From an uncultured Bacteroidales bacterium (lineage in GTDB: Bacteria; Bacteroidota; Bacteroidia; Bacteroidales; Paludibacteraceae): 64,000 nt of DNA. Below, in pieces: positions 267 through 60,119 of the stretch. Each line of letters starts with the position of its first letter. Position 1 is the first letter of the stretch. The stretch lies in NCBI GenBank assembly GCA_902762355.1, contig CACWNR010000001.1, positions 1-64,000 on the forward strand. Reading direction: 5' to 3'. The notes beneath the pieces were generated by a model. That model saw only the letters and a list, made by a program, of their open reading frames with translations. It was not told the DNA's origin and made no database searches. The position numbers and the translations under genes were made by a program.

Positions 267-1144
267 GTCGTCGGAATAATTGCTTCTTTATGAAATTCTT
301 TCAGTCCCTCGATAGGATCCTTGAGGATCGTGCCCAGCGGCAGTCCCTCCGCCCGCATGGCCTCTTCCAAAACAGGCTTGTAGAAGTACGCGATCGAACC
401 CACGAAGCCGACAGCTGAATTCTGAAGGCTGAATTCTGAATGCTTAAAATACTGCACCAGATTGCGGCGGATGAACTGCACGAAATGGTCATACACGAGG
501 GCGTGGATACGTTCGTCCTCGATATGATCCGCACAGAACTTGGATAGCTTGGCGAGGAAACGATTCGGGAAGGGTTGACGATATACTTTTTCGATGATAT
601 CCGCCATACTCGTCTCGTACTCCTTAAAGAATGCGTCCTTCAGATCGTCGCCCAACTGATTCTTCAGCAGGTCACCCACCAATCGTTTGCCGAGCACCGC
701 AGCCGAACCCTCATCGCCCAGGATATAACCCAGCGACGGCACACACCATTCGATCGTCTCGCCGTTGTAGAAACAACTGCCGCTACCCGTGCCGAGGATA
801 CAAGCCACCCCTGCGTTATGCCCCAACAGACCGCGTGCTGCACCGAGCATGTCGGACTCTACATGCACTTCGGCTTTCTTGAAAACAGCCTCCAGCGCGC
901 GTTGAACGAACACTTTTTTCTCCGGCGTACATCCCGCTCCGTAGAAGAAGACATGCGTCAGCGTACCTGCCCAGAGTAGGGGCGCAATCTGCGGTAATAA
1001 CTGGTTACTGATGCTGTTTTGCATCGCAATCGTGGTCTGAAAAAGCGGGTTGATACCATCGGTGAAAACGTCCGAACATTGTCCGCTCGCCGTGACGAGA
1101 CACCAGTGCACTTTGGTACTACCACTATCGGCTAAAAGAATCAT
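263..1144 (-). CDS. BadF/BadG-type ATPase, N-acetylglucosamine kinase-like
   Basis: A 293-residue sugar-kinase-fold protein of the BadF/BadG/BcrA/BcrD family, which includes N-acetylglucosamine kinases that phosphorylate GlcNAc with ATP in the cytoplasm. The N-terminal phosphate-binding loop reads ADSGSTKVHW (residues about 5-14) and a second glycine-rich loop GTGSGS is near residue 118. I chose the ATG at 1144 rather than an in-frame ATG at 1192 because the promoter lies between them and the protein then begins at the conserved MILLADSGSTK. A 7-bp repeat tract at 415-442 encodes the insert HSEFSLQNSA near the C-terminus. Substrate is inferred from family; glucosamine or another amino sugar is possible. 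Confidence 0.8.
   Translation of the reverse strand: MILLADSGSTKVHWCLVTASGQCSDVFTDGINPLFQTTIAMQNSISNQLLPQIAPLLWAGTLTHVFFYGAGCTPEKKVFVQRALEAVFKKAEVHVESDMLGAARGLLGHNAGVACILGTGSGSCFYNGETIEWCVPSLGYILGDEGSAAVLGKRLVGDLLKNQLGDDLKDAFFKEYETSMADIIEKVYRQPFPNRFLAKLSKFCADHIEDERIHALVYDHFVQFIRRNLVQYFKHSEFSLQNSAVGFVGSIAYFYKPVLEEAMRAEGLPLGTILKDPIEGLKEFHKEAIIPTT
413..443. repeat. 7-bp repeat tract in the kinase gene (unit CTGAATT, 4 copies)
   Basis: Four degenerate copies of CTGAATT at 415-421, 422-428, 429-435 and 436-442. The tract is in-frame coding sequence of the kinase-like gene and is read as HSEFSLQNSA. Confidence 0.8.
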
Positions 1145-1161
1145 AGTATTAAAATTTTTCG

Positions 1162-1192
1162 CAAAATTACAAAAAAAATTGCATATATGCAA
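1162..1192 (-). promoter_or_regulatory. Promoter of the kinase/glycosyltransferase pair
   Basis: On the minus strand TTG (1192-1190), a 20-nt spacer and TAATTTTG (1169-1162) match the Bacteroidota primary-sigma consensus TTG-N20-TAnnTTTG. The -33 region is the 14-bp palindrome TTGCATATATGCAA (1179-1192), which also contains the sulP-like start codon at 1187. Confidence 0.75.
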
Positions 1193-3519: not shown

Positions 3520-3551
3520 TAGGATCCTAGGAACCTAGGAGCCTAGGATGA
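3520..3551. repeat. 8-bp repeat tract at the end of mnmA (unit TAGGAACC, 4 copies)
   Basis: TAGGATCC, TAGGAACC, TAGGAGCC and TAGGATGA in 8-bp phase. On the minus strand the tract encodes the last residues of mnmA (ILGS) and its TAG stop (3535-3537). Confidence 0.75.
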
Positions 3552-4659
3552 TGCCTCCGCCGACCACGAGGTCGTCTGAATAGATGACGACGGATTGACC
3601 GGGGGTGATACCCCAGACGGGAGTTGCAAATGAGATGCAATTCCCGTCTATCTTTTTGACGGGAACCGCTGCGCTTCGATAACGAACTTTGGCGGTAAGA
3701 TCGGCTGCGCCTGTAAGACCGCTGCGCTGTAAGACCGCTGCGCTGTAAGACCGCTGCGCTGTAGGAGTAAAGCGTAGTTCGGTGGCATACATGTCATCGT
3801 TGGTGCCGAGGGTGATGCGGTTGGTGGCAGCATCGATGCGGGTGATATAAGCAGGATGACCGAGGGCGATGCCAAGTCCTTTGCGTTGCCCGATGGTATA
3901 GTTGACGTAACCTTCGTGGTGACCGAGAACCTTACCGTTCGCGTCGATATACTCGCCCGCGTGTACGCGTTCGTTATAATCAGGCACGTTCGCGCGCAGG
4001 AAAGTGCGGTAGTCATCGTCGGGGATGAAGCAAATCTCCTGGCTCTCGCGCTTGACGGCGAGTTTCTCATAACCGTGCTGACGAGCTATCTCACGCACCT
4101 GCTCTTTGGTATAGTCTCCCAGCGGGAAGATGGTTCGTTGGAGTTGTTCCTCGGTCAGCATCCAAAGGAAATAGGTCTGGTCTTTCTTGGTATCCGCTGC
4201 GGTGCGCAGATAGACATGCCCGTCGCGCTCGGCGATGCGGGCGTAATGACCGGTGGCGATAAAGTCGCACCCCATCTCGTCTGCCAGATGCAACATCTCA
4301 CCCCATTTGATAGTGGCGTTACAGAGCACGCAGGGGTTGGGTGTTCGGCCTGCCATGTATTCGTCAATGAAGTTCTGTATGACGCAACGTTTGAAAGTCT
4401 CCCGGAAGTCCACTATGTGGTGCTCAAAACCCATCCGCTCCGCATTATGCTTGGCTTCCATGATCGAGTCGATGGTGCAGCAGCCTTTTTCTTTGGCGAT
4501 GCAGGACTCTTTGATCGAGTCATAAGTACGGAAAGTGACGCCGACTACTTCGTAGCCTTGCTCCAACAGCAACATCGCACTCACCGTGGAGTCAATGCCG
4601 CCGGACATCCCTAGAAGCACGCGGTGCTTATTGGTCATTTGTGATTGGTCATTGGTCAT
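3535..4659 (-). CDS. mnmA: tRNA-specific 2-thiouridylase MnmA
   Basis: Installs sulfur at position 2 of the wobble uridine in tRNAs for Lys, Glu and Gln, using ATP and a persulfide. The 374-residue protein shows the PP-loop SGGIDST near residue 19, the first catalytic cysteine in TPNPCVLCN, and the second in RESQEICFIPDDD. A C-terminal beta-barrel domain follows. The start is uncertain: ATGs at 4659 and 4638 are both inside a 7-bp repeat tract that encodes MTNDQSQMTNK, and residues before VLLGMSGG are non-conserved. The barrel domain carries an unusual insertion encoded by a 16-bp tandem repeat (3695-3765). The gene follows the ABC exporter directly (TAAATG), as the last gene of that operon. 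Confidence 0.93.
   Translation of the reverse strand: MTNDQSQMTNKHRVLLGMSGGIDSTVSAMLLLEQGYEVVGVTFRTYDSIKESCIAKEKGCCTIDSIMEAKHNAERMGFEHHIVDFRETFKRCVIQNFIDEYMAGRTPNPCVLCNATIKWGEMLHLADEMGCDFIATGHYARIAERDGHVYLRTAADTKKDQTYFLWMLTEEQLQRTIFPLGDYTKEQVREIARQHGYEKLAVKRESQEICFIPDDDYRTFLRANVPDYNERVHAGEYIDANGKVLGHHEGYVNYTIGQRKGLGIALGHPAYITRIDAATNRITLGTNDDMYATELRFTPTAQRSYSAAVLQRSGLTGAADLTAKVRYRSAAVPVKKIDGNCISFATPVWGITPGQSVVIYSDDLVVGGGIILGS
3695..3765. repeat. 16-bp tandem repeat inside mnmA (three perfect copies)
   Basis: Unit GTAAGACCGCTGCGCT is repeated exactly at 3713-3728, 3729-3744 and 3745-3760, preceded by a diverged copy at 3695-3712. Three units make 48 bp, so the reading frame is kept. It encodes a region rich in R, S and A in the C-terminal domain of MnmA that typical family members lack. 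Confidence 0.85.
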
Positions 4660-4660
4660 T
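4630..4660. repeat. 7-bp repeat tract at the start of mnmA (unit ATTGGTC, 4 copies)
   Basis: ATTGGTC, ATTTGTG, ATTGGTC, ATTGGTC then ATT in exact 7-bp phase. Read on the minus strand it gives both candidate start codons of mnmA and the peptide MTNDQSQMTN. Confidence 0.85.
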
Positions 4661-9303: not shown

Positions 9304-9321
9304 TTTTTTAGCAATTTATAG

Positions 9322-9356
9322 TTTCAAATTTCAAGTTTCAAATTTCAAGTTTCAAA
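9322..9356. repeat. 7-bp repeat tract at the rnhB-sppA junction (units TTTCAAA/TTTCAAG, 5 copies)
   Basis: Five exact-phase copies alternating TTTCAAA and TTTCAAG. Read on the minus strand the tract encodes the last residues of rnhB (NLKLEI), its TGA stop (9338-9340) and most of the spacer to sppA. Confidence 0.88.
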
Positions 9357-9940
9357 TTGAACGTTTTGCGGTGGTACGGCGTTATGCCGTATTTCTTGAT
9401 CGCTTCATAGTGCGCGGCAGTGGGGTAGCCTTTGTTGGCATCCCAGCCGTACTGGGGATATTCGGCATGGAGGCGCAGCATGTATTCGTCCCGATAGGTC
9501 TTGGCGAGCACACTTGCTGCGGCTATTGACATATACGTGGCGTCACCATGCACCACCGTGTCTGCGGGTATCTCGAGCAGTTCGCCTTCCGGCACGTATG
9601 GCTTCCATTTATTGCCATCAACGAGTATATGTTGCGGTCGGACGGTCAGTTTGTCTAATGCCCGCTGCATTCCTAAGATCGAGCACTGCAGGATGTTACG
9701 TTCATCTATCTCCTGCGCCGTCACCTCGACCACTGCCCAACTGACTGCCTCGCGCTCGATGACCGGCCGTAGGGCTTCGCGTTGTTTCTCCGTCAATTGC
9801 TTGGAGTCATTGAGCCATGCGAACTCAGGTATGTCTTTGACCCGCTCGGGATCTAAGATGACTGCCGCGCAGAACACACTCCCCGCCAAAGGTCCGCGAC
9901 CCGCTTCGTCACACCCGGCCTCGATGAGGCCTTTTATCAT
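9338..9940 (-). CDS. rnhB: Ribonuclease HII
   Basis: Cuts the RNA strand of RNA-DNA hybrids and single ribonucleotides in DNA. The 200-residue protein begins MIKGLIEAGCDEAGRGPLAG, which contains the Asp-Glu pair of the active site. A third acidic site is in LVDGN and a fourth in YIDYMS-like position as DATYMSIAAASVLAKTYRD. I chose the ATG at 9940, which starts right before the conserved motif. A further ATG at 9955 lies inside the upstream 7-bp repeat tract and would add five residues. The C-terminal NLKLEI is encoded by another repeat tract. Confidence 0.93.
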   Translation of the reverse strand: MIKGLIEAGCDEAGRGPLAGSVFCAAVILDPERVKDIPEFAWLNDSKQLTEKQREALRPVIEREAVSWAVVEVTAQEIDERNILQCSILGMQRALDKLTVRPQHILVDGNKWKPYVPEGELLEIPADTVVHGDATYMSIAAASVLAKTYRDEYMLRLHAEYPQYGWDANKGYPTAAHYEAIKKYGITPYHRKTFNLKLEI

Positions 9941-9943: not shown

Positions 9944-9978
9944 AGTTTTCAGCATTCAGTTTTCAGTGTTCAGTTTTA
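9944..9978. repeat. 7-bp repeat tract between the BamA-like gene and rnhB (unit AGTTTTC, 5 copies)
   Basis: AGTTTTC, AGCATTC, AGTTTTC, AGTGTTC and AGTTTTA in exact phase. It fills the whole spacer, provides the TAA stop of the BamA-like gene (9976-9978) and contains an alternative rnhB start (9953-9955). Confidence 0.85.
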
Positions 9979-12210: not shown

Positions 12211-12936
12211 ATGGAGAAAATCAGCAAAGCACAGGTCAAACTTGTAAAAAGTTTGCAGCAAAAGAAGTTCCGTGACGAATTAGGTCTGTTTGTGGCAGAG
12301 GGAGATAAATGCGTGTCCGAATTGCGCAAATCGTTCGAACTCATTCATCTCTACCGCGAGGGCGAGAACGCTACGCGTACGGAGATCGAGCAGATGTCGG
12401 GTCTCAAGGCCCCACAGGGTGTCATCGGAGTCTTCCGCAAATCACCAATCACCAATCACCAATCTTCAATTACCAATTACCAATTACCAATTACCAATCT
12501 AACGCTTGCATTAGACGCTATCCAAGATCCGGGCAATCTGGGCACGATCATCCGCACCTGTGACTGGTTTGGTGTCCATGATATTTTCTGTTCGCTCGAC
12601 ACGGCGGACTGCTATAGTCCCAAGGTCGTTCAGGCGACGATGGGTGCGTTGGCAAGAGTGCGGGTACATTATGTGGATCTGCCGAAATGGCTGAAGGAGC
12701 AAAAATGCCCGATCATAGGAACGCTCCTCGAAGGTCGCGATATGTACGAAAAACCGCTTCCGAAAGAAGGAATCATCGTCATGGGCAATGAGGGAAACGG
12801 GATCTCGCAGGAGGTACGAGCTCTTGTTACTAACCCGATAAGGATTCCGAGTTATCCAAAAAACGCTGAGACTTCGGAAAGCCTCAACGTTTCTATTGCA
12901 ACTGCGATTGTTCTGGCAGAATTCAGAAGAGTTTAG
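12211..12936 (+). CDS. SpoU/TrmH-family RNA 2'-O-methyltransferase
   Basis: A 241-residue SPOUT methyltransferase that should methylate a ribose in rRNA or tRNA using S-adenosylmethionine. The N-terminal substrate-binding part contains [18 protein letters not shown]. The knotted catalytic domain has [20 protein letters not shown] (motif 1), GNEGNGIS (motif 2) and [20 protein letters not shown] (motif 3). The ATG at 12211 is 20 bp after the -7 element and begins [10 protein letters not shown], the usual family start; an earlier in-frame ATG at 12160-12170 is inside the promoter. A 7-bp repeat tract inserts [17 protein letters not shown] between the two domains. The 3' end overlaps the convergent thrS by 4 bp. 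Confidence 0.9.
12441..12499. repeat. 7-bp repeat tract inside the RNA methyltransferase gene (units ATCACCA/ATTACCA, 8 copies)
   Basis: Eight copies in exact 7-bp phase: three ATCACCA, one ATCTTCA, four ATTACCA. It is the longest such tract in the window. The translation has a 7-residue period ([17 protein letters not shown]) and lies at the hinge between substrate-binding and catalytic domains. Confidence 0.92.
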
Positions 12937-14762
12937 AACTCGCTCATCTGTTTCTTTACGTTGTCGTTGATGAAGTCAGCGAACTGTTGGATGGTCATTG
13001 AGCCGTCTCCTTCGGGCGCGGGTTGACCGCTGGCTTCGCCGCCTTGACGACGCACGCTCACCTTACCTTCTTCGGCCTCTTTCTCGCCGACAATCAGCAT
13101 GTAAGGGATACGCTTGAGTTCGTTGTCGCGGATCTTACGTCCGAGCTTCTCATTACGGTCATCTACGATGACACGTACATCCTGTGCCTCGAGCATCTCT
13201 TTCACCTTCCACGCATAGTCGTTGCTCTTCTCGGAGATCGGCAGCACGACAGCCTGATCCGGCGTCAGCCAGAGCGGGAACTTACCCGCAGTATGCTCGA
13301 TCAGCACCGCTACGAAACGCTCCATCGAACCAAACGGCGCGCGGTGGATCATGACGGGACGGTGTTTCTGGTTGTCCTCACCCGTATATTCGAGTTCGAA
13401 ACGTTCCGGCAGGTTGTAGTCCACCTGGATGGTTCCGAGTTGCCAACGACGGCCGAGTGCGTCCTTGACCATGAAGTCGAGTTTCGGTCCGTAGAAAGCG
13501 GCCTCACCGGTCTCTTCGCGTGCCGGCAGATTCATCTCCTTACATGCCTCGCGGATAGCATTCTCTGCATGCTCCCAGATCTCGTCTGAACCCACGTATT
13601 TCTCGTGGTTATTGGGGTCGCGGAGCGAGATCTGTGCCTCGTAGTTCTCGAAGTTGAGGGCCTTGAAGATGATGTTAATGATCTCCATCACGCGGATGAA
13701 CTCCTGCTTTACTTGGTCTTGACGGCAGAAAATGTGGGCGTCATCCTGCGTGAACGAACGTACACGCGTTAGACCGTGCAGCTCGCCGCTCTGCTCGTAA
13801 CGATAGACGGTACCGAACTCCGCGCAGCGGAACGGCAGGTCTTTGTACGAACGCGGGCTGTTCTTGTAGATCGCGCAGTGGTGCGGGCAGTTCATCGGCT
13901 TGAGCAGATAGACCTCGCCTTCCTCCGGCGTGGTGATCGGCTGGAAGGAATCCTTGCCGTAGTGATCCCAGTGACCCGAAGTCATATACAGCTGCTTGCT
14001 TCCGATATGCGGCGTGATGACCTGCTGGTAGCCATATCGCTTCTGGATCTTCTTGAGGAAGTCCTCGAGACGCAGACGCAGGGCAGTGCCTTTCGGCAGC
14101 CAGATAGGCAGACCTTTGCCCACCATGTCGCTGAACATAAACAGTTCGAGATCCTTACCGATCTTGCGGTGGTCACGTTTCTTGGCTTCCTCTAAGAGCG
14201 CCAGGTACTCATCGAGCATCGAGCGTTTGGGGAACGAGATAGCGTAGATACGCGTCATCATCGGACGTTTCTCATCGCCGCGCCAGTAAGCCGCCGAGCA
14301 GCTGAGCACTTTGACTGCCTTGATGTCACCCGTTGAGAGCAAGTGCGGACCCTTACAGAGATCGGTGAAGTTACCTTGCGTATAGGTGGTGATCGAACCG
14401 TCCTCCAGCTCCGAGATCAACTCGCATTTATAACTCTGACCCTTGTCGCCGAAGGCCTTCATCGCATCGGCTTTGCTGATCTCTGCGCGAACAACCGATT
14501 CTTTCTTCGCGCGCAACTCCATCATCTTGTTCTCGATGGCCTCAAAACACTCGTCGTTGATCACCACTCCCTCGGGGGGCATTACGTCATAGTAAAAACC
14601 GTTCTCGATAGAGGGACCGATACCGAATTGGATACCCGGATACAACTCCTGCAAGGCTTCTGCCATGAGGTGCGAACTCGTATGCCAGAAGGCATGTTTC
14701 GCTTGCTCGTCTTCCCACTCAAAAGCCTGAATACTTCCGTCTTGATATTGAACTTTTATCAT
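12933..14762 (-). CDS. thrS: Threonyl-tRNA synthetase lacking the TGS domain
   Basis: Charges tRNA-Thr with threonine. The 609-residue protein keeps the N2 editing domain ([11 protein letters not shown] and [11 protein letters not shown]), the class II catalytic core (motif 2 [13 protein letters not shown], the zinc-site MNCPHH, motif 3 near [12 protein letters not shown]) and the anticodon-binding domain at the C-terminus. It is about 35 residues shorter than usual: after [10 protein letters not shown] only a dozen residues precede [10 protein letters not shown], where other bacterial enzymes have a TGS domain of about 60 residues. The promoter at 14793-14823 lies just upstream, so the short start is real, not a mis-called start. 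Residues [14 protein letters not shown] near the end form a small extra loop. Confidence 0.94.
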
Positions 14763-14887: not shown

Positions 14888-15064
14888 ATTTTGGAAGAGT
14901 CTCCAAAATAACAAATTTCGTTGAAACGATATAGGCACTACAGAGGGGTGACAATGGGTGAAGCAACCATTGAGCACCCATTCAGCATCCATTGAGCATC
15001 CATTGGGAGAAGGTGGAAACCATGTGGCGGGTCGGGATGCGGCTCTGTTACGAGTCGCATTTTC
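14888..15064 (+). ncRNA. Candidate small RNA between thrS and the BspA-like gene
   Basis: A strong promoter (14851-14881) is followed by a stretch with no convincing reading frame and then a hairpin with a 9-bp stem (15037-15045 with 15052-15060, loop TGTTAC) ending in TTTT. The predicted RNA is about 175 nt. Its 5' end can form a short stem (TTTTGG with CCAAAA near 14887-14908). The middle carries an 11-bp repeat (14968-15007). One short reading frame (ATG at 14954, 13 codons) exists but has no support. The stretch 15065-15145 holds only AT-rich inverted repeats, including a perfect 10-bp palindrome at 15076-15096. Confidence 0.4.
14968..15007. repeat. 11-bp repeat tract (unit CATTGAGCATC, 3.6 copies)
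   Basis: CATTGAGCACC, CATTCAGCATC, CATTGAGCATC and a partial CATTGGG in 11-bp phase, within the candidate small RNA. Confidence 0.75.
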
Positions 15065-20251: not shown

Positions 20252-21322
20252 ATGAAAAAGACAATACTATTTTTTGTCGCTATAGGCCTGTCGATGGGGC
20301 TGGTGGCGCAGAATCAGAATGCGACGTACTTGGCGTACATCGAGCAGTGGAAAGACATGGCCATTCAGGAGCAAATCGACTATGGCGTTCCGGCGGCAAT
20401 CACGATGGCACAGGCGCTGTTGGAGTCGTCTGCCGGGCAGAGCGAGTTGGCGGTGAATGCGAAAAACCATTTCGGCATCAAGTGCACCAAAGACTGGTTC
20501 GGTGCAGTGTATTACTACGATGATGACAGTGCGGGTGAGTGTTTCCGCCAATACGGTGATGCAGCGGAGAGTTTTAAGGATCACTCGCTGTTTTTGAAGC
20601 GTCCGCGTTACACGACCTGTTTTGAGATCGCGGTGCAAGACTACGAAGCGTGGGCTTACCGTTTGCGTGACTGCGGGTATGCCACCGACTATATGTATGC
20701 TCCGAAGCTGGTTAAGATCATCGAGACCTACCATCTGGATACATTGACGGTGCGCGCGCTTAAAGCGAATGAATCCGCGCCGCAGGAAGTAGCAGCGGCT
20801 CCGGATACCGCGCAAACTGCAGCTCCGCAGCAACCGAGAGCGAAGCGTCCGTTGAAGGCAGAGGTGGTGCATCGCACCGATCCGATCATGGTCATTCATA
20901 ATGATCCCGAACCGGAGTATGTAGTGCCGCTGACGGCGCGTGAGGAGCGCGACAGCTTCCTGCTGATGCACCCGAAGAAACGCTGTAATGGCGTGATGTA
21001 CGTAGTGGCTCGTGAGGGTGACACGTACGCGAACGTGGCTTTCCGTTTGAATGTGCGCGAGCGTGATCTGCGTGAGGACAACGATGCCCTCGGACGCGAG
21101 TTGGCGGTGGGTGACCGTATCTACTTGGCGGCGAAGAAAAAAATCGGCGACAAGGATTTCGTTTGGACGCATACCGGACAGTCTTTGTGGCAGTTATGTC
21201 AAGAAGAGGGCGTGTCGATGACGGCCATTCAGGAGCTGAACGAGTTGGATCCCCAGATCCGTACTTTCCGTACGCGCCAAAAGATCTACCTGCGCAAAGT
21301 GAAAGAGGACACGAAAAGGTGA
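20252..21322 (+). CDS. Exported glucosaminidase (GH73) with two LysM-like domains
   Basis: A 356-residue cell-wall hydrolase. A signal peptide (about residues 1-19, ending GLVAQ) is followed by a GH73/FlgJ-type N-acetylglucosaminidase domain (20-165) with the motifs YGVPAAITMAQALLESSAGQ, which contains the catalytic glutamate, and NHFGIKC. A Pro/Ala-rich linker leads to two C-terminal LysM-like modules (about 245-295, YVVAREGDTYANVAF; 305-350, VWTHTGQSLWQLCQ) that bind peptidoglycan. It cuts glycan strands during growth or division. Its stop TGA (21320-21322) lies inside a 7-bp repeat tract shared with the next gene. First gene of a five-gene plus-strand operon. Confidence 0.9.
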   Translation: MKKTILFFVAIGLSMGLVAQNQNATYLAYIEQWKDMAIQEQIDYGVPAAITMAQALLESSAGQSELAVNAKNHFGIKCTKDWFGAVYYYDDDSAGECFRQYGDAAESFKDHSLFLKRPRYTTCFEIAVQDYEAWAYRLRDCGYATDYMYAPKLVKIIETYHLDTLTVRALKANESAPQEVAAAPDTAQTAAPQQPRAKRPLKAEVVHRTDPIMVIHNDPEPEYVVPLTAREERDSFLLMHPKKRCNGVMYVVAREGDTYANVAFRLNVRERDLREDNDALGRELAVGDRIYLAAKKKIGDKDFVWTHTGQSLWQLCQEEGVSMTAIQELNELDPQIRTFRTRQKIYLRKVKEDTKR

Positions 21323-21345
21323 TTGGTGATTGGTCAATGGAGATC
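21318..21345. repeat. 7-bp repeat tract forming a gene junction (unit GGTGATT, 4 copies)
   Basis: GGTGATT, GGTGATT, GGTCAAT and GGAGATC in exact phase. It contains the stop codon of the glucosaminidase gene and the start codon (21337) of the DUF721 gene. Confidence 0.8.
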
Positions 21346-23864: not shown

Positions 23865-23886
23865 ATTGTAGATTTTAGATTTGAGA
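23859..23886. repeat. 7-bp repeat tract at the mutS2 end (unit TTGTAGA, 4 copies)
   Basis: TTGTAGA, TTGTAGA, TTTTAGA and TTTGAGA in exact phase. It supplies the mutS2 TAG stop (23862-23864) and the entire spacer to the next start codon at 23888. Confidence 0.85.
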
Positions 23887-23887
23887 T

Positions 23888-24631
23888 ATGAAAAACAAAA
23901 TCTTTCTTTTATTAGCCTTTGTGATGGCGATGCCGGTGATGGCGAAGGAGTATATCTCCCTCGATGGCGGGCATAACCTGCGGGGCTTCGGTGAAGAGCG
24001 CTATAGTGTCTCCTTCGCCGCGGAGTACGCCTATAACCGGACGTGGGAACATATGGGCAATTTCGATATCTACGCCCACATGCCGGTGGTAAAAAATGTG
24101 CAAATCGACGCGCGTGTGCAGTTACAGACGGCGAATGTGTATACGGGTGCGGTAGTATTGCGTCCGACCTTTGACCTGCCGGTGGGACAGTTGTTCGCCG
24201 AGACAGAGGTGCTCTACAAAGCCGTGGCTCGCAATCGAATGAGTGACCTGTGTGCAGCCTTGTCCGTGGGTTGGCGCTTTGACTACGTGTCGGTTCAGAT
24301 TGGTGCCTTCGCACGCGTGATGGATAGTTGGGACCGTAGTTGGCATTCGGAAGACAAGTACCAAGTAGAACCGTTCAACCTGCTGTACCGTCTGGAGGTG
24401 TTCGCTCGTCCGCAGATCAATAACTGGAATATATCCGTGGCGCTGAGTAATATCGACGACTGGCAGATGGAGCGTATGTGGCAGCCGCTGTTCCAGTTGG
24501 GCGGACGCTATGATATCGACGAGCACTGGCGGGTAAGCCTGGACGGCGAACTGAAGATAACGGGAATGTTTCACTTGAATGCAACCTTCTACGCAGCCTA
24601 TCTGCGCGCAGGGTTCAGTTATCGATTCTAA
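23888..24631 (+). CDS. Predicted outer membrane beta-barrel protein, function unknown
   Basis: A 247-residue exported protein with a signal peptide (MKNKIFLLLAFVMAMPVMA). The rest alternates hydrophobic and polar residues with many aromatic residues and glycines, as in small outer-membrane barrels, and ends in GFSYRF with a terminal phenylalanine, the usual barrel-assembly signal. I do not recognise the family. It sits 23 bp after mutS2 and 5 bp before a metallophosphoesterase gene, so it may be co-expressed with that enzyme. Confidence 0.6.
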   Translation: MKNKIFLLLAFVMAMPVMAKEYISLDGGHNLRGFGEERYSVSFAAEYAYNRTWEHMGNFDIYAHMPVVKNVQIDARVQLQTANVYTGAVVLRPTFDLPVGQLFAETEVLYKAVARNRMSDLCAALSVGWRFDYVSVQIGAFARVMDSWDRSWHSEDKYQVEPFNLLYRLEVFARPQINNWNISVALSNIDDWQMERMWQPLFQLGGRYDIDEHWRVSLDGELKITGMFHLNATFYAAYLRAGFSYRF

Positions 24632-32628: not shown

Positions 32629-32655
32629 TCCTTCATTCGTTCACTCGTTCAACAA
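32624..32655. repeat. 8-bp repeat tract at the deacetylase/ABC-F junction (unit TTCATTCG, 4 copies)
   Basis: TTCATTCC, TTCATTCG, TTCACTCG and TTCAACAA in 8-bp phase. It contains the start codon of the deacetylase-like gene (32626-32628), the spacer, and the stop of the ABC-F gene (32641-32643). Confidence 0.75.
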
Positions 32656-37473: not shown

Positions 37474-40223
37474 AGAGTAGTTGATTTTTCTGTATTAGCT
37501 ATTATTTGTGCCAGGTATTGGCCTGTATAACTGTCCGGACACTGCGCAACTTCTTCCGGCGTACCGGCGCAAACGATGTGTCCGCCTTCTTTACCGCCTT
37601 CTTTACCCAAGTCGATCACATGATCGGCGGCTAAGATGACTGCCGGGTTGTGCTCGATAATAATGACGGTATGTCCTTTACTGATGAGTCGGTTCAGCGC
37701 CGCTAACAGCACCTCGACATCCTTGTGATGCAAGCCGGTCGTGGGTTCGTCGAACACAAAGATCGTAGGTGTGTTATCTTCCTGCGCAAGGAACGACGCC
37801 AATTTCACGCGTTGACTCTCGCCGCCGGAAAGGGTACTGCTGCTTTGACCCAACTGAATATATCCGATACCTACATCCTGCAGCGGTTTGAGACGCTTGA
37901 CGATCTTCGCGCAGGCGGGATCCTGGCTAAAGAACTCCAAGGCCTGATTAACCGTCATGCCTAAGATATCATAGATCGACTTGTCGCGGTAATGAACGTC
38001 CAGTACATCTTGCTTGAAGCGCCGGCCGTGACACTGCTCGCATTCCAGAATCAGATCGGCCATGAACTGCATCTCGATCGTGATCGTTCCTTCGCCCTGA
38101 CAAGCCTCGCAGCGACCGCCCGGGGTGTTGAACGAGAAATGCGCCGGGGTGAAACCCAACTGGTTAGACAAGGGCTGCTCGGCGTACAGACGACGTATCT
38201 CGTCGTAAGCCTTCAGGTAAGTCACCGGATTGCTGCGACTCGAACGACTGAGTGGGTTCTGATCCACATACTCAATATCGCGCATTAACTGCAGACTGCC
38301 GCGTAAGTGACCGAAATCACCGGTGTGTTCGGCAAACTGCCCACCGTAATGTTTCTTCAACGCTGGGTAGAGCACTTTGCTCACCAGACTCGATTTGCCG
38401 CTACCACTCACGCCCGTCACCACCGTCATCACATGCAGCGGGAAACGTACGGTCAGGTTCTTGAGGTTGTTCTCACACGCGCCTTCTACCTCGATATAAT
38501 TGCTCCAATGCCGGCGCTGCTGGGGGATCTGATAGGTGAATAACTCCGGCCGCGGACGACCTTCGTACACTACCTCACCGCCGTTCCTACCCGCCATCGG
38601 ACCGATCTCTATCACGTGATCCGCGGCGGCGATGATATCCTCATCGTGCTCCACCACCACGATCGTGTTACCCAAGTCGCGCAGTTGTTTGAGCACCCGT
38701 ATCAGGCGCTCCGTATCGCGCGGGTGCAGACCAATCGACGGTTCATCCAGTACGTACAACGACCCCACCAGGCTACTTCCGAGCGATTTGGCCAGACTGA
38801 TACGCTGACTCTCACCACCGGAGAGGGTGGTGCTCTGACGATTCAGCGTCAGATAACTCAACCCCACATCTTTCATGAACTGCAACCGACTGCGTATCTC
38901 CGCAAGCACGATCTCGATGGTCTGCATCTCGATCTCACGCAACTGCAAATGCTCAAACCACTCGTCCAATTCCGAGATCGGCATCGCGCATAACTGCTGG
39001 ATCGACTTGCCGTTAACCAGCACATACTCCGCCTCTTTGCGCAGGTGAAAACCGTTGCAAACCGGACAAGTCGTTTTACCCTTATACCGCGCTAACAGCA
39101 CTTTGTACAGCATCTTCGAGTACTGCTCTTTCTCCAGCATTTTGAAGAACTCGTGCAGGCCTCGGAAATACGCATTACCTTGCCACAGCAGTTGTTTCTG
39201 CTCTTGGCTCAAGGCATAGAATGGTGTGTGAATAGGAAAATCGAACTTTGCGGCGTTATACACTAACGCATCGTTCCATTCGCGCATTTTCTCGCTCTGC
39301 CAGCAAGCGATCGCACCCTCGTAAATGGTCTTCGATTTATCGGGTACCACCAGATCCGGATCAATACCCATTACCGAACCAACGCCTTTGCATTCCTCAC
39401 ATGCCCCTACCGGACTGTTGAAATCAAACAGGTGTTCGCTCGGCTCGATGAACTGAATACCGTCCGCCTCAAAGCGCTCAGAGAACACTTTCTCGTGCTT
39501 ATCCACCCATACATGGCACTCACCGTTGCCCTCGAAGAATGCCGTCTGCACACTGTCTGCAAAACGGTTACTTGTGGCCGGTTCGTGATCCACGATGATA
39601 CGATCTACCAGCAGATACGACTCGTGACCTTGCGCTTGATCCCACGTCGTGTCATCCAACCGTACCGTGTCGCCGTCAATGAGCAGACGACTGAAACCCT
39701 GACTCTGCCAGAGTGCCAGCTGCTCTTTGAGCGAACGACCTTCCGGCAGCACGATCGGACTCAGCAGATACAGACGCGTCCCCTTCGGCTGTGCCTCCAT
39801 GTACTGCACCACATCGCGTATCGTGTTCTTGCGTACCTCTTCTCCGCTCACGGGCGAATACGTGTGGCCTACGCGCGCGTACAAAAGTTTTAGGTAGTCG
39901 TATATCTCTGTTACCGTCCCCACGGTCGAACGCGGGTTACGGCTCGTCACTTTCTGCTGAATAGCGATAGCCGGCGGGATACCTTCGATCTTATCCACCT
40001 CCGGTTTCTGCATACGCCCCATGAACTGGCGCGCATACGCACTCAGGCTCTCCACATAGCGTCGCTGACCTTCGGCATACAATGTGTCGAAAGCCAGCGA
40101 ACTCTTTCCGCTGCCGCTAACACCCGTTACCACCACCAACTTGTTGCGGGGTATATCAACCGATATGTGTTTCAGGTTATGGGTGTCTGCGCCTTCTATG
40201 TGAATGAACTCTTCGCTCTTCAC
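37470..40223 (-). CDS. uvrA: Excinuclease ABC subunit A
   Basis: The damage-sensing ATPase of nucleotide excision repair, acting with UvrB and UvrC. The 917-residue protein has both ABC ATPase modules: Walker [13 protein letters not shown] and [12 protein letters not shown], signatures [12 protein letters not shown] and [12 protein letters not shown], and zinc sites such as [16 protein letters not shown] and CEACQGEG. The start is a GTG (40223-40221) lying inside a 7-bp repeat tract. Only 9 bp separate it from the HU-LysM gene, and it overlaps the CapD-like gene by 4 bp, so DNA repair and surface-glycan genes appear to share a transcript. Confidence 0.95.
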
Positions 40224-40236
40224 TCTTTACTCTTAC
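40209..40236. repeat. 7-bp repeat tract at the uvrA start (unit CTCTTCA, 4 copies)
   Basis: CTCTTCG, CTCTTCA, CTCTTTA and CTCTTAC in exact phase. It contains the uvrA GTG start (40221-40223), the spacer and the TAA stop of the HU-LysM gene (40233-40235). Confidence 0.82.
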
Positions 40237-41387
40237 CTTTTGCAGGCTGCTTCAGCTTCTTGTTTGAGCTGTAAAAACGCTGTGGATGTCGTATCCATCT
40301 GCGCCTTCGTCAGTTTCGGTACGCGCAACGGTGTACCGGTATCGATATTATTCGGATTGTCGATCACGTCGCGGTTGGCGTCGTACAGATACGGCCAATA
40401 CACCTTCTTGCCGTAGAAACGCTTCGACATCCACGTCAAACGACTACCTTCGTGCATCGCCTCTACCGTGATCAGGTTCGGGTACTCTGCTGTACCGGTG
40501 ACCGTCTCACCCGAAGCAGCCAGGAACTCCGCCAGAATCTGCTCTTGCGGAATCTTACCTTTCGGAATCTTTGCCGTCTCTGCAGACTCTGCTGCCGGCG
40601 CAGACTCTGCGGCCGGCTCTTCTGCTGCTGGCTCTTCTACTACTGCCGGTTCTTCTACCATCAGCACAGGCTCGCCTACGATTACTTCTTCGGTCTCAGC
40701 CGGAGCCATGAATGAACGGATGATATCACTCAACTCCTGACGCAGGAAGAAATATCCGCCTGCCAACAACAGCAGCAAGATGATGACGCAGATCAAGGTG
40801 TCGCGCCAGAAATGACTCTTCTTTTTCTCCTCCTTCGGCCGTTGCACAATAATCTCCGGCTCGGGCTCAACAACAGGAGTTGGCTCCGGAATAAACACAG
40901 GTTCGGGTTCCGGTGCTGGTTCTTCTATTACAGGCTTGGGCTCTTCTACTACCGGTTCCGGCTCTGCTACAGGCTCTTCCTTCGGACTTTGTCCGAGGTC
41001 ACCGAGGATATCTACGATCTCCTCCGCCTGTGCCCCGAGTTTCTGGATCGGGTCAATGGCCGGTGAACTTTCCACGTTCGACTCTTCACTTTCCACTTTC
41101 GAGGACTCGACGAGTTCCCGTACACCTGCTTCCGGTGTGAACGCCAGTTTATTGTATCCCTCGATCAGAATCTCCTCGCCGGTCGTGACGTTCACGCTCT
41201 TACGCGGCGCCACAGCTTGTACCTTGAAGGTTCCCAAACCGTTGATCTTCACTTGTTTATCGGTTTTCAGCGCTTCCAATAACTGCGCCTGAACGGCATT
41301 CAGAAATGCTCCTGCCGTTTTCTCACTCACGCCTGCACGCTTAGCTAATGCGCGGCGTAACTCTGTCCAACTCAGTTTCTCAGCCAT
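40233..41387 (-). CDS. Membrane-anchored HU-family DNA-binding protein with periplasmic LysM-like domain
   Basis: A 384-residue protein with an unusual domain order. Residues 1-90 are an HU/IHF fold (KINGLGTFKVQAVAPRKSVN). Residues 95-195 are a Pro/Glu-rich linker. A basic stretch (RPKEEKKKSHFWRD) precedes one membrane helix (about 197-215, LICVIILLLLLAGGYFFL). A second Glu/Pro/Ala-rich linker follows, and a C-terminal LysM-like domain (about 310-365, GSRLTWMSKRFYGKKVYWPY and TGTPLRVPKL). The topology places HU in the cytoplasm and LysM in the periplasm, so it could tie the chromosome to the cell wall; this is inference. A free HU gene is directly upstream. HU fused to envelope domains has been noted in Bacteroidota before. 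Confidence 0.8.
   Translation of the reverse strand: MAEKLSWTELRRALAKRAGVSEKTAGAFLNAVQAQLLEALKTDKQVKINGLGTFKVQAVAPRKSVNVTTGEEILIEGYNKLAFTPEAGVRELVESSKVESEESNVESSPAIDPIQKLGAQAEEIVDILGDLGQSPKEEPVAEPEPVVEEPKPVIEEPAPEPEPVFIPEPTPVVEPEPEIIVQRPKEEKKKSHFWRDTLICVIILLLLLAGGYFFLRQELSDIIRSFMAPAETEEVIVGEPVLMVEEPAVVEEPAAEEPAAESAPAAESAETAKIPKGKIPQEQILAEFLAASGETVTGTAEYPNLITVEAMHEGSRLTWMSKRFYGKKVYWPYLYDANRDVIDNPNNIDTGTPLRVPKLTKAQMDTTSTAFLQLKQEAEAACKR
41068..41102. repeat. 7-bp repeat tract in the HU-LysM gene (unit CTTTCCA, 5 copies)
   Basis: CTTTCCA, CGTTCGA, CTCTTCA, CTTTCCA and CTTTCGA in exact phase. Minus-strand translation is SSKVESEESNVESS, at the border of the HU domain and linker. Confidence 0.82.
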
Positions 41388-41674: not shown

Positions 41675-43003
41675 TTATTGTATTATTTCTCCGTATAAAT
41701 CAAATTCTTCTGCCCTGGTAATCTTCACATTATAGAAATTTCCAATTTCCAATTTCCAATTTCCAATGTTCTCAACGAGAACCTCGCAATCCACCTCCGG
41801 GCTGTCGTACTGCGTTCTGCCTACCCAATAATCGCCATCTTGTCGGTCGATGATCACCTTCTGCGTCGTTCCCACTTTCTGCGCCATCAACTCGCCGCTG
41901 ATCTCCTGCTGGATCGCCATCAACTCCGATGCCCGCGCTTCCTTCACTTCCTGCGGGATATCATCTTTATAGTGTTTGTTCGCGTACGTTCCTTCTTCGT
42001 CCGAGTACGCGAAACAACCCATCCGATCAAACCGCATCGCTCTCACCCACGCTTTCAGTGCCTCGAAGTCCTCTTCGGTCTCACCCGGGTGTCCCACCAA
42101 CAGGGTCGTTCGTATACAAATGCCCGGCACTTTTGCCCGTATCTTTTGAATCAACGCATCTTGTTCGGCTTGCGTGATATGTCGCCGCATCATACCCAAC
42201 ATGTGATCCGTACAATGCTGCAGCGCGATATCCAGGTACTTGCACACATTCGCGTGTTTCGCCATCACGTCCAACAACTCCTCAGGAAAATCCGTCGGGT
42301 AGGCGTAATGCAATCGTATCCATTCCACACCCTCTATCTGCGCCATCTCATCGATGAGTTCCGGCAGCATATGCCGTTTCTCCAGGTCGAGACCGTAACT
42401 GCTCAAATCCTGTGCAATAACATTCAATTCCTTCACGCCCTGACTAACCAGCCATCTCACCTCATCCAGTATCTCCTCTTTCGGCCGACTCGTATGCCGT
42501 CCCGTGATCAACGGAATGGCACAATACGAACACATGCGGTTACATCCCTCTGATATCTTCAAATACGCATAATGCTTCGGTGTAGTGAGGTGTCGTTCAT
42601 AAGACTTGCATCCCTGTAGGCGCTCTGCGCCGTCCTGTAGCGAAGCGTCCTTCAGCCTCTCAACCATTCCTTCAAAATCGAACTTCCCGTAATACGCATC
42701 CACCTCCGGCAGTTCCTCTTCCAACTCCGCCCGATAGCGCTCGCTCAGACACCCCATCACGATCAGCGTCTTCAACTTCCCCTTCTTCTTCCGCTCCGCC
42801 ATCTGCAGGATCATGTTAATGCTCTCCTCTTTGGCGTCGCCGATGAACCCGCAGGTGTTGATCACGCACACTTCCCCTCTCGGCTCCTCCGGATCGTGTA
42901 CACACGTCCATCCTGCCGCCTCCAACTGCCGCATCACCCGCTCTGCATCCACCAAGTTCTTCGAACACCCGAGCGTTATGAAATCGATTGTGCCTTTTTG
43001 CAT
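41675..43003 (-). CDS. rimO: Ribosomal protein S12 methylthiotransferase RimO
   Basis: Radical-SAM enzyme that adds a methylthio group to an aspartate of ribosomal protein S12. The 442-residue protein has the N-terminal UPF0004 domain (DFITLGCSKNLVDAE, VINTCGFIGDAKEE), the radical-SAM cluster motif EGCNRMCSYCAIP and a C-terminal TRAM domain. A 7-bp repeat tract at 41737-41771 inserts IGNWKLEIGN in the TRAM domain. A second insert near residue 115 (DASLQDGAERLQGC) is encoded by a GC-rich imperfect repeat at about 42608-42650. The start overlaps the recQ stop by one base (TGATG). Confidence 0.93.
   Translation of the reverse strand: MQKGTIDFITLGCSKNLVDAERVMRQLEAAGWTCVHDPEEPRGEVCVINTCGFIGDAKEESINMILQMAERKKKGKLKTLIVMGCLSERYRAELEEELPEVDAYYGKFDFEGMVERLKDASLQDGAERLQGCKSYERHLTTPKHYAYLKISEGCNRMCSYCAIPLITGRHTSRPKEEILDEVRWLVSQGVKELNVIAQDLSSYGLDLEKRHMLPELIDEMAQIEGVEWIRLHYAYPTDFPEELLDVMAKHANVCKYLDIALQHCTDHMLGMMRRHITQAEQDALIQKIRAKVPGICIRTTLLVGHPGETEEDFEALKAWVRAMRFDRMGCFAYSDEEGTYANKHYKDDIPQEVKEARASELMAIQQEISGELMAQKVGTTQKVIIDRQDGDYWVGRTQYDSPEVDCEVLVENIGNWKLEIGNFYNVKITRAEEFDLYGEIIQ
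41737..41771. repeat. 7-bp repeat tract in rimO (unit AATTTCC, 5 copies)
   Basis: AATTTCC four times followed by AATGTTC, in exact phase; read on the minus strand as IGNWKLEIGN within the TRAM domain. Confidence 0.88.
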
Positions 43004-45534: not shown

Positions 45535-45562
45535 GCGCCCGTTTTTATAAAAGGTACTTAAA

Positions 45563-45750
45563 CCCTATGTTTACCCTATGTTTTACCTATGTTTTACGTT
45601 ATCTGAATTATGAAAGTCATTTTATCAAATATGTGTACATCCCTCGTCGGGATGCTTAATCCGGAGCTCGGATATCATCTGGAGCATCGCAAAAACGGAG
45701 TGAACGTATGTTTAACCTATGTTTAACCTATGTTTGACGTATGTTTTACC
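45563..45750. repeat. Two 11-bp repeat tracts in the intergenic leader (unit CCTATGTTTAA)
   Basis: First tract 45563-45596 (CCCTATGTTTA and two near copies, one 12 bp long). Second tract 45705-45748 (CGTATGTTTAA, CCTATGTTTAA, CCTATGTTTGA, CGTATGTTTTA). Between them are two small hairpins (CATCCC with GGGATG; ATCCG with CGGAT). No protein gene is visible in 45240-45898. Confidence 0.75.
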
Positions 45751-45822
45751 TGTCAACCCTATTTTTTTAGTGCATGAATTTTGAAAAAATTAACACAAAA
45801 TGAGAAAAAATACACAAAACTC

Positions 45823-58738: not shown

Positions 58739-58805
58739 AGTTGTAAATCGTTTAGTTAATAATCAAATCTCACTAAACAATCTACAAACTACGTTCCAAA
58801 CGTAA

Positions 58806-60119
58806 CTATACTGACAAAATGGCAGTCAAGTGTTGCAGAAGAGCTTTCATGTCGGGCAGTACTACATCCGCGCCTGCGGCGGCAAGATCCGCATCGGATA
58901 GAATACCCGTATTAACAGCCACCGTGTATAGTCCCGCGGCTTTACCAGCGCGTACACCGAGCGGTGCGTTTTCTACTACCATGCACTCGTTCTTGGCAAA
59001 ACCGCTCCGCTCCCATGCCTTCAGATACGGCTCTGGATCGGGTTTGCCACGCGTGACATCGAAAGCGCAGATGATGCCCGAGAATACATGATCGAATGTG
59101 TCATTCAGACTATTAATCAGATTGCGTTGACCGGAACCGGTCACTACCCAACACTGTACACCGTGTTCGTGCAACATATGCAGTACATCCTTAATGCCCG
59201 GTATCACTTCCGGCAGTTGACCTCGGGTCAGACGAATGAAATGATTCGACTTCGCGCTATAGACGGCTTCTATCACCTCCTGTGGTGCCTCTACACCGTG
59301 TACCAAACGATAGGCCTCATTGATAACCGACGCACCTGTACGACCTTCATTTTTATACGTTTGGTTCTTGGTGAACGGCAATCCGTTCTCGTTCATTGCC
59401 AACTCCCATGACTGCGCGTGGTACGGCATCGAATTGAAAAGAACACCGTCCTGATCAAAGAAAACCGCTTTCAATTTTCGTGAATAATTCCGCTCGCCGA
59501 AGATAGTACTTCCTATACGCACCATCGTACTGCCGCATTCAATAGCAATCCGGTAGTCATCGCTCATGCCCATGGACAAAGTGGAAAGTGGAGAGTGGAA
59601 AGTGGAAAGACACGCTTGCGCTGTTTGAAAACACCGCCGTATCTCTGCTTCATCCTCCGTATTCGTGGCCATGGCCATTAATCCGTGGATGCGGACATTG
59701 GACATTGGATATTGGACATTGGAGATTTCTTCAGGACTGAAGCCGGTTTTCGTCTCTTCTTTCGCTACATGTACCTCCAGCAGAACGTCTTGTACAATCC
59801 CTTGCTTGGCGGCTTCGTCGTTAATGGTCTGTAGCAATCGCTCAGAGTCCACAGACTGAATGAGATACGGGCGTAACTTCAGCAGGTCACGCACTTTATT
59901 GGTTTGCAAATGTCCGATGAAATGCCAGTGGATATCGGATGGCAGCGCCGCTACTTTCTGCTTTAATTCCTGCACACGACTCTCCCCGAAATGACGCTCA
60001 CCGGCTTCGTACGCCTCGCGTATCGCCTCTATCGGCTGAAACTTACTGACACATACCAGCGTCACGTGCGCGGGTATATGTGCGCGAACCTTATTTATTT
60101 GTTCTGCGACTCCTGCCAT
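58806..60119 (-). CDS. Fusion: YggS-type PLP homeostasis protein plus HAD-family phosphatase
   Basis: A 437-residue fusion. Residues 1-212 are a YggS/PLPBP protein with the PLP-binding lysine in VCVSKFQP (Lys26), then FIGHLQTNKV, GLMAMAT, SMGMSDDY and IECGSTMVRIGSTIFGER. Residues 215-437 are a HAD hydrolase of the beta-phosphoglucomutase-like type: KAVFFDQDGVLFNSMPYH (nucleophile Asp222), VVTGSGQR (motif II), GKPDPEPYLKA (motif III lysine) and VVENAPLGVRAGKAAG (motif IV). The join is direct (NYSRKLKAVFF), with no linker. Two 7-bp repeat tracts insert SNVQYPMSNV and STFHSPLSTL in the YggS half. PLP homeostasis coupled to a phosphatase is a plausible but unproven role. Confidence 0.85.
   Translation of the reverse strand: MAGVAEQINKVRAHIPAHVTLVCVSKFQPIEAIREAYEAGERHFGESRVQELKQKVAALPSDIHWHFIGHLQTNKVRDLLKLRPYLIQSVDSERLLQTINDEAAKQGIVQDVLLEVHVAKEETKTGFSPEEISNVQYPMSNVRIHGLMAMATNTEDEAEIRRCFQTAQACLSTFHSPLSTLSMGMSDDYRIAIECGSTMVRIGSTIFGERNYSRKLKAVFFDQDGVLFNSMPYHAQSWELAMNENGLPFTKNQTYKNEGRTGASVINEAYRLVHGVEAPQEVIEAVYSAKSNHFIRLTRGQLPEVIPGIKDVLHMLHEHGVQCWVVTGSGQRNLINSLNDTFDHVFSGIICAFDVTRGKPDPEPYLKAWERSGFAKNECMVVENAPLGVRAGKAAGLYTVAVNTGILSDADLAAAGADVVLPDMKALLQHLTAILSV
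59581..59608. repeat. 7-bp repeat tract in the YggS-HAD gene (unit GTGGAAA, 4 copies)
   Basis: GTGGAAA, GTGGAGA, GTGGAAA and GTGGAAA in exact phase; read on the minus strand as STFHSPLSTL. Confidence 0.88.
59693..59727. repeat. 7-bp repeat tract in the YggS-HAD gene (unit GGACATT, 5 copies)
   Basis: GGACATT, GGACATT, GGATATT, GGACATT and GGAGATT in exact phase; read on the minus strand as ISNVQYPMSNV. Confidence 0.88.

Follow-up and report, generated by a model that had tools for sequence, protein, structure and literature searches.

The first 64,000 nucleotides of contig CACWNR010000001.1, from an uncultured Bacteroidales bacterium of the Paludibacteraceae (GenBank assembly GCA_902762355.1), carry short tandem arrays of 7-bp units, many of them inside protein-coding genes. 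We refer to this whole stretch as the window. We find that such heptanucleotide arrays are a feature of the genus, that the same unit words recur at unlinked genes, and that species carry their own sets of words. We give about an even chance to the explanation that these arrays, which resemble the short tandemly repeated repetitive (STRR) sequences of cyanobacteria, spread by the copying of ready-made arrays and survive where proteins tolerate them. Below, G000 denotes the window's own genome (1.94 Mb, 75.9% complete), other G numbers its congeners and relatives, and L numbers individual stretches of DNA.

A 7-bp period across the genus

A preliminary description of the window had noted tracts that hold an exact 7-bp phase, along with a few arrays of 8, 11 and 16 bp. 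Tandem Repeats Finder (TRF), run at score 30, returned period-7 rows at 18 places, all six of the examples named earlier among them, and likewise recovered the 8-, 11- and 16-bp arrays. Exact lag-7 runs of at least 9 number 11 in the window, compared with a mean of 0.0 in 10 dinucleotide shuffles; the counts at lags 6, 8 and 9 are 2, 0 and 3. Using a tract score of +1 per match and -2 per mismatch with a minimum of 12, we counted 11 lag-7 tracts, and 20 synonymous-codon shuffles of the predicted genes left a mean of 1.2. These shuffles, like the genic and intergenic counts, orientations and stop-escape tallies reported below, rest on a simple gene caller, which missed the open reading frame (ORF) at 15146-19474.

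In a larger G000 sample of 464,000 bases (the window and 20 stretches of 20 kb each), lag 7 gives 47 tracts, amounting to 0.32% of the sequence, with harmonics at lag 14 (33 tracts) and lag 21 (8 tracts). Among non-harmonic lags, lag 11 gives 9, lags 15 and 22 give 5, lags 8 and 16 give 4, and every remaining lag between 3 and 30 gives at most 3. At lags 6, 8 and 9, the comparison on which the preliminary description had staked its idea, there are thus at most 4 tracts against 47, and the idea is not refuted. The lag-7 observation is confirmed as right and not a matter of chance, and the tracts have the properties of heptanucleotide simple sequence repeats (SSRs): a 7-bp unit in at least three tandem copies, a frequency above chance, and the same words at many loci of one genome.

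Lag-7 tracts occur in eight of nine sampled congeners at 5-30 per 100 kb (G003 has 0 in 20 kb). The deepest congener sample, G014 (524 kb), holds 148, with 24 tracts at lag 8 and 20 at lag 11. By comparison, 14 genomes from other families of the order yielded 2 lag-7 tracts in 301,938 bases. The excess is therefore genus-wide and almost absent from 14 other Bacteroidales families. The RimO proteins of the uncultured Bacteroidales RUG13090 and SRR11784295_bin.42 are 86% identical to that of the window.

To chance, codon usage, protein-level repeats or assembly artefact as the source of the signal we give next to no credence. In favour of this reading, the genus genomes used are fragmented. Against it, eight of nine congener samples show the same pattern, as do, for one word class, named isolates of cyanobacteria. 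Little of the signal is left after dinucleotide or synonymous shuffling, ruling out chance or codon usage as the main cause, and a period of 7 is not a multiple of 3. Single weak tracts may be chance products.

Words shared between unlinked genes, and species dialects

The preliminary description held that units differ from tract to tract and that only the period is shared. Comparison of the tracts bears this view out only in part: GGTTACR occurs in mutS2, in an ABC-F gene and in other genes, and GGTNATT, CTGAANN and GGAAAGT-type words also recur. With near duplicates removed, an exact word is shared by 21 of 990 tract pairs within G000 (mean 1.1 and maximum 4 in a null of 300 draws of heptamers from the flanks), by 281 of 8001 pairs within G014 (null 8.4, maximum 22) and by 59 of 5715 pairs between the two genomes (null 5.9, maximum 13). 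Words thus stand at unlinked loci about 20-33 times above the local-word null. In a label permutation over 117 tracts, sharing within genomes (39/1547 pairs) exceeded sharing between them (50/5239 pairs; p ~0.0005).

Species carry their own word sets, or dialects. We counted overlapping three-unit matches in 26 whole genomes, so that a single array may score repeatedly, with the backward pattern as control; because the patterns were chosen from the genomes themselves after the tracts were known, the contrast, not its significance, is the result. AGCYAAN scores 348 in G014, 16 in G001, 15 in G002 and 0-4 in the remaining genomes (control 0-5), and ATTGTGM scores 41 in G020 and 0-3 elsewhere (control 0). 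For GGTTACR the counts are 19 in G045, 14 in G000 (at 9 places), 8 in G017, 6 in G005, 3 in G021, 1 in G014 and 0 in 20 genomes (control 0-1). GGTNATT scores 31 in G000, 12 each in G005 and G014, and 0-8 elsewhere (control 0-5), where the 8 in G002 against a control of 5 make no clear case. A one-gene RimO tree without support values places G000 and G014 as sister species, so words seem to turn over fast; the genomes of L177 and L207, also placed in this tree, lie outside the GGTTACR and AGCYAAN counts.

These patterns bear on local polymerase slippage with a preference for 7-nt steps, in which words recur since some heptamers slip more readily. Such a step was proposed for heptanucleotide repeats by Mrazek et al. 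2007, as cited in passages of PMC4679880 and PMC4692102. We consider slippage a serious possibility, though on balance an unlikely one. It fits the predominance of period 7 over the lesser peaks at 8 and 11, the partial likeness of neighbouring units and the presence of some words in different species. It fits poorly with dialects that differ between sister species of the RimO tree, and steps of +7 in genes would be expected to shift the frame. Mismatch repair also appears to be in place, as MutS1 was found in 24 of 25 genus members (the sole miss being a 54% complete genome) and MutL in 22 of 25 (not found in G011, G015 and G020); loss of mismatch repair is accordingly unsupported as a cause.

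Constant positions and one nearly free base

In some word classes, variation is concentrated at particular positions of the unit. The AGCYAAN class of G014 (32 tracts, 137 units) reads A131, G137, C136, C85/T50, A134, A134, with C55, T41, G21 and A20 at the last base; bases 1, 2, 3, 5 and 6 are 96-100% constant in this unselected tally, which keeps near duplicates. Inside genes (20 tracts, 80 units), the five constant positions reach 79-80 of 80, the fourth is C61/T17 and the last is mixed. A position test on 27 AGCCAAC tracts gave polymorphism counts of 5, 0, 0, 20, 1, 1 and 20 (p=0.0002), and was also significant for GTGAAAG and AGTCGAA (G014) and for GGTTACG (G000, 5 tracts). Slippage copies whole units, and substitution should then strike all positions alike. 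The layout would thus need bases that are constrained as DNA or RNA, or else piecemeal copying from a source array that is old and varied, and one nearly free base argues against slippage as the sole cause. Slippage is likewise hard to square with an AGCYAAN seventh base that is poorly copied to the neighbouring unit while five others are held.

The arrays might consist of a restricted hexamer with one nearly free base (AGCYAA+N, GGT+N+ATT, ATTGTG+M, GGTTAC+R), multiply by a copying process, capture existing addresses word by word and be exchanged with phages. We put this forward as a doubtful proposal. If it is true, protein linkers are written by a spreading nucleotide word and edited just enough to keep the frame open.

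Several features of the tallies weigh against the copying of ready-made arrays. ATTGGTG and GGTGATT were marginal in the position test and ATCAAAA and AATTAAA did not reach p<0.05, and the p values for the eight classes are uncorrected for eight tests. In arrays selected for their constant bases, so that only the free positions are informative, the seventh base of an AGCYAAN unit matches that of its neighbour in 63 of 149 pairs, where independence predicts 40, so local duplication also acts; the C/T base matches in 82 of 149 (76 expected). Strict constancy is further weakened by the units that flank the strict AGCYAAN arrays, which vary more at bases 5 and 6 (A51/89 and A44/89 in G014, A22/43 and A26/43 in phage), which we read as due in part to inverted units starting there. 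Finally, part of the position-specific variation has a simple source, since within genes stop avoidance governs base 3 of GTGAAAG and the C of AGCYAAN; the significant result for GTGAAAG is partly due to it. Stop avoidance explains part of the C/T base of AGCYAAN, and not its free last base.

Arrays in genes and single-base escape from stop codons

In the housekeeping genes that were compared, arrays stand at linkers and at the ends of the gene, which supports the location given in the preliminary description. Phase-variation contingency repeats switch surface genes by changes in copy number; the named host genes here are housekeeping genes. In the G000 sample, gene interiors, which make up 79% of the sequence, hold 28 of the 47 tracts, and a further 5 and 3 stand in the last and first 60 bases of genes, respectively. 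Spacers hold 11 of 47 tracts in 12.7% of the sequence (1.8 times expected), and in G014 64 of 148 in 13.9% (3.1 times expected). Spacers are therefore enriched, yet they hold a minority of tracts in both genomes, in contrast to the mainly intergenic TAACTGA and Xanthomonas repeats discussed below; a mainly intergenic location does not define heptamer SSRs as such. Between co-directional genes, array orientation relative to transcription showed no significant bias in the few spacer cases available.

Within genes, three word classes are read wholly or mostly in their stop-free direction (GGTTACG 6/6, ATCAAAA 7/7, GGTGATT 9/11). AGCCAAC tracts are sense in 19 cases and antisense in 3, which would reflect a hydrophilic versus a hydrophobic reading. 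GTGAAAG runs counter to the stop-free rule, with 12 sense and 4 antisense tracts and 12 of 16 in the direction that holds TGA. It can do so because the in-frame unit carries a one-base escape, TTA in place of TGA: in nine TGA-direction tracts, the in-frame units read TTA in 8 of 8 cases, and the out-of-frame units read TGA in 25 of 29 and TTA in 1. Similarly, in-frame units of AGCYAAN tracts in genes read CAA in 19 of 19 cases, compared with CAA in 37 and TAA in 13 of 52 out-of-frame units. Arrays of stop-bearing words in genes thus escape by one base exactly in the in-frame unit. That no in-frame stop occurs is a demand of the ORF itself; the finding is that the rest of the array keeps its word. 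In-gene arrays illustrate how conserved enzymes come to carry linkers written by spreading DNA words, whose own stop codons are escaped by single-base changes.

Array sequences at unlinked loci and shared addresses

Longer identities link arrays at separate loci of G000. L022 has a 23-bp string that recurs unchanged in mutS2 and one of 25 bp that recurs unchanged in the ABC-F gene. The arrays of L010 and L016, which are unlinked, have an identical 41-bp stretch that holds two whole variant units, of 16 and 17 bp, a result that speaks against local slippage; the same word family builds a 16-bp array inside mnmA (GTAAGACCGCTGCGCT; 3695..3763, minus strand; TRF, shared words). Nine of ten GGTTACR places examined in G000 lie within open frames of 188-851 codons.

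Arrays also occupy the same addresses in different species, frequently with different words. We mapped tracts scoring at least 10 from five congeners to positions 20-64 kb of the window and compared them with its 14 tracts there. Of 22 mapped congener tracts, 12 fall within 80 bp of a window tract, against a mean of 0.74 and a maximum of 5 for shifted positions, a null that does not take into account that arrays are permitted in a smaller part of the genome. These 12 are spread over 7 window tracts; 2 have kept the word and 10 differ from it. Across the orthologous loci compared, array inserts differ among species of the genus.

The C-terminal loop of RimO is an example. In the window it holds GGAAATT x4 (41737..41767, minus strand; IGNWKLEIGN; lag scan, species comparison, T. 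maritima alignment), a 4-residue insertion relative to the solved T. maritima RimO (4jc0). The loop carries GGTCATT in G014, CACAATN in G020, a CGGAAAT-like word in G013 and AAGTTGA in G001, with a 23-bp repeat instead in G003 (27 of 30 loci kept after a motif filter). Related species that have different words at the same addresses form a natural experiment, one that allows the source word to be set against the old word and the empty site. At some loci the array is more conserved than its flanks: a 35-bp GGTNATT array of five units (free bases G, G, C, T, T in order) is identical in G000 and G005 (L363:825-859 and L364:880-914), while the DNA around it aligns over 1765 bp at 77%.

The earlier suggestion of a process that creates or spreads 7-bp repeats is supported; the copying step is our own inference. 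In such a process, ready-made arrays of at least three units would be copied from place to place, most simply while DNA is being replicated or repaired, through template switching or through ectopic conversion at short homology, and some local slippage would occur alongside. Each lineage would amplify its own words, and selection would purge copies that frame-shift, stop or unfold the protein. Three units, being 21 bp or seven codons, would form a natural in-frame step.

A number of observations count against the copying of ready-made arrays, among them the limit of the address null given above. Only 23 of 228 repeated exact 20-mer blocks in the G000 sample overlap lag-7 tracts, and some of these 23 match only within their own tract. 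Among the tracts compared we saw no insertion event or intermediate, and Y1_Tnp and RVT_1 profile searches of the incomplete genus genomes found no copying enzyme. Sharing of words between species, at 10 times the null, may partly reflect an intrinsic word preference of slippage. GGNNATT, which accounts for 11 of 47 tracts in G000 (null 0.8) and 20 of 148 in G014 (null 2.1), is no universal word, with 0 of 41 tracts in five smaller congener samples.

Hairpins, phage-like contigs and candidate enzymes

Position-specific degeneracy and the array kept identical between G000 and G005 would also be expected of selected DNA or RNA elements, in which a protein or base pairing would recognise the restricted bases and the arrays would act in regulation or translation. 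In line with this, hairpins with inverted heptamer arms were seen by eye just before ATG in five of the G014 loci examined, six G014 hairpins fold at -15.5 to -25.3 compared with about -8 to -10 for mononucleotide shuffles, and heptamer-armed hairpins stand in many gene gaps of phage contigs. Such a role is difficult to reconcile with the 28 G000 tracts in gene interiors, where the seventh base is equally free, with the lack of significant orientation bias in the few cases between co-directional genes, or with the frequency of inverted copies, which stand near 1 of 47 G000 tracts where the control gives 7%, and near 8 of 148 G014 tracts where it gives 10%. We regard it as quite improbable. Inverted copies being no commoner near tracts than in controls, hairpins were rejected as a general basis; the G014 inverted-arm elements, which lie between genes with unrelated flanks, form a palindromic sub-family.

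Two phage-like contigs, IMGVR_UViG_3300021255_003533 (L319, L267, L323, L297) and IMGVR_UViG_3300028833_000521 (L290, L326, L315, L329), carry, in many of the gaps between genes, hairpins whose GC-rich loop is flanked by (TTAGCTN)n and (AGCTAAN)n arms. Five pieces scanned hold 10, 5, 5, 9 and 2 clusters, and the 12 hairpins examined fold at -27 to -48 compared with -12 to -17 for mononucleotide shuffles. Of 212 seventh bases in the arms, 127 are left unpaired. The terminase of IMGVR_UViG_3300021255_003533 is 68% identical to that of a human-faecal phage scaffold.

Movement of arrays by a dedicated mobile-element enzyme, a RAYT/Y1 transposase or reverse transcriptase, as for REPINs, appears very unlikely. 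Repeated units at unlinked places and the palindromic G014 elements suit it, as do RVT_1 in G014, G002 and G017 and, in G000, a Y1_Tnp match that is weak, at 25.2 bits for a cut-off of 23. Against it, in these incomplete genomes Y1_Tnp is above cut-off in 8 of 26 congeners with no match in G014, G002 and G020, and RVT_1 occurs in 6 of 25 genus members, not including G000, G020, G021 and G005. Neither was retained as a common factor, Y1_Tnp being patchy and without a match in some tract-rich genomes, and RVT_1 being present in G014 and not in G000.

Relation to known repeats

Cyanobacterial heptanucleotide repeats of Calothrix and Nostoc are known as STRRs, one of which, STRR2, we take to be TTGGTCA. 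The parallel drawn in the preliminary description is borne out by GGTCATT (TTGGTCA) arrays in both G000 and cyanobacteria. Like STRRs, the arrays studied here have 7-bp tandem units at many loci and several words per genome. They differ in that predicted genes, housekeeping genes among them, hold over half of the G000 tracts, and in that words change among species of one genus. To our knowledge, GGTTACR and AGCYAAN are not among the STRR words. A four-unit GGNNATT scan across phyla found at least 117 stretches. Among the 80 matches listed, 66 are cyanobacterial by title or genus name, and the others are Bacteroidota (6), Chloroflexota (3), Gammaproteobacteria (2), Spirochaetaceae (1), WOR-3 (1) and unnamed (1). 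In the listed loci, NN is mixed in 24 of 84 arrays. Units of GGTCATT, GGTAATT, GGTGATT and GGTTATT are found both in the listed cyanobacterial arrays and in G000, and named cyanobacterial isolates among these matches also carry heptamer arrays of one word class. Of other tracts beside the matches listed, 15 of 110 are GGNNATT (null 4.2, maximum 12).

Rickettsia palindromic elements are repeat insertions kept in frame within protein genes, as the tracts are here. They are longer and palindromic, unlike the direct arrays of about 20-60 bp described in this work, near which inverted copies in G000 and G014 do not exceed the control. The palindromic pairs of REPINs likewise find no general counterpart, given inverted copies near 1 of 47 G000 and 8 of 148 G014 tracts.

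Heptamer arrays as a kind are already known from passages of PMC4679880, PMC4692102 and PMC2700814. According to Mrazek et al. 2007, as cited in PMC4679880, heptanucleotide repeats outnumber every other category of long simple repeat in the majority of bacterial genomes examined. TAACTGA direct repeats are described in PMC4679880 from Beggiatoaceae, cyanobacteria and five Bacteroidetes, where most of them stand directly before start codons. These are also arrays of a favoured heptamer, patchy across phyla, though a single word is involved there, compared with many words and species dialects here. Passages of PMC4692102 mention three Calothrix heptanucleotides and link GGGNATC arrays in Xanthomonas and Nostoc to the 7-nt slippage idea; these arrays are dispersed like ours, and differ in being G-quadruplex candidates under-represented in coding regions. 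In Geobacter metallireducens, according to passages of PMC2700814, GGGACCG stands at 49 places, within and between genes, and MTYCTGA, with degenerate positions, at 15/16 sites. Both are dispersed arrays of 4-5 heptamers as here, with the difference that they are two families in one genome and are called putative regulatory elements. In searches of open-licence PMC papers, we found no report of heptamer dialects, shared addresses and in-gene residence in one Bacteroidales genus.

Arrays and neighbouring features in the window

The remaining arrays of the window are given with their strand where one is assigned. TRF, unit layout and gene position together define a CTGAANN-class tract inside an ORF (414..444, minus; residues 234-244, SEFSLQNSA), an 8-bp array (TAGGAACC) at the stop codon of mnmA (3520..3548), a GGTCATT (TTGGTCA) tract at the start of mnmA (4630..4660, minus; MTNDQSQMTN), and a CTGAANN-class tract in the tamL-rnhB spacer (9944..9977, minus). 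The identity of mnmA rests on an NCBIfam match. TRF and gene position place a TTTCAAA/TTTCAAG tract at the end of rnhB (RNase HII; 9320..9358, minus), where it encodes the C-terminal NLKLEI, and an ACTTTCC-type tract in an HU/LysM-like protein (SSKVESEESNVESS; 41067..41100, minus). An AATCACC/AATTACC tract of the GGTNATT class (12440..12499, plus; TRF, lag scan, domains) has 8 units and lies in a SpoU methylase gene, separating the MRM3-like substrate-binding domain from the catalytic SpoU methylase domain.

TRF gave a short CATCGAG doublet in thrS (14210..14224), the weakest row, which may be due to chance; an 11-bp array (AGCATCCATTG) in a spacer (14962..15005); a GGTGATT doublet overlapping a stop codon (21318..21334, plus); an 8-bp array (TTCATTCG) at a gene boundary (32624..32651); and a weak TAATGTT tract at a stop codon (62259..62277). 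Two 11-bp arrays of AACCTATGTTT type lie upstream of a major facilitator superfamily gene (45562..45751, plus; TRF, unit layout).

Lag scan and species comparison support a GGTTACR tract in mutS2 (21977..22005, plus; ELRVTGYGLQE), in a loop variable among species, and a GGAAAGT tract in yggS (CLSTFHSPLSTLS; 59578..59609, minus). Lag scan and address mapping support an ATTGTAG-type tract that spans the mutS2 stop and the next start (23858..23891, plus), an ATTTTTG/ATTTGTG/ATTGGTG tract near the C-terminus of a 699-aa ORF (27262..27299, minus), an ACTCTTC tract at a two-gene boundary (40208..40234, minus), where G014 has GTGAAAG units, and a GGACATT tract in yggS (ISNVQYPMSNVR; 59693..59727, minus), where G005 has a different word. 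The ORF at 58806-60119 fuses YggS (TIGR00044) with a HAD phosphatase of the NF053653 family, a fusion also present in G005.

In the ABC-F gene, a GGTTACR tract (DEGLRVTGYGDE; 34149..34173, minus; species comparison) is present in G005, and G014 lacks it by exactly 21 bp. An ACTTTCC tract in the ABC-F C-terminal linker (32890..32922, minus; TRF, species comparison) is replaced by other 7- or 11-bp words in congeners, and 11-bp words of GACCGTCGGTT type stand at the orthologous linker in G021, G002 and G020. The related ACCGACGGTCAACCGACGGTGAA, 23 bp long, occurs unchanged in both L007 and L017 of G000. A repeated-string search found a single GGACGCTTCGCTACA word in rimO (42629..42651, minus) that is also present twice on a different contig, within an ORF roughly 3.5 kb long.

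Longer repeats are also present. The ORF at 15146-19474 encodes a 1442-aa BspA-type leucine-rich repeat protein with 69/138-bp DNA repeats and a CBM26 module, and related repeats occur in L010 near 18 kb. The segments 19988-20135 and 45284-45432 have exact 24- and 30-bp pieces in common, in opposite orientation, and perhaps represent a degraded mobile element; pieces next to these strings recur in L006, L010 and L019.

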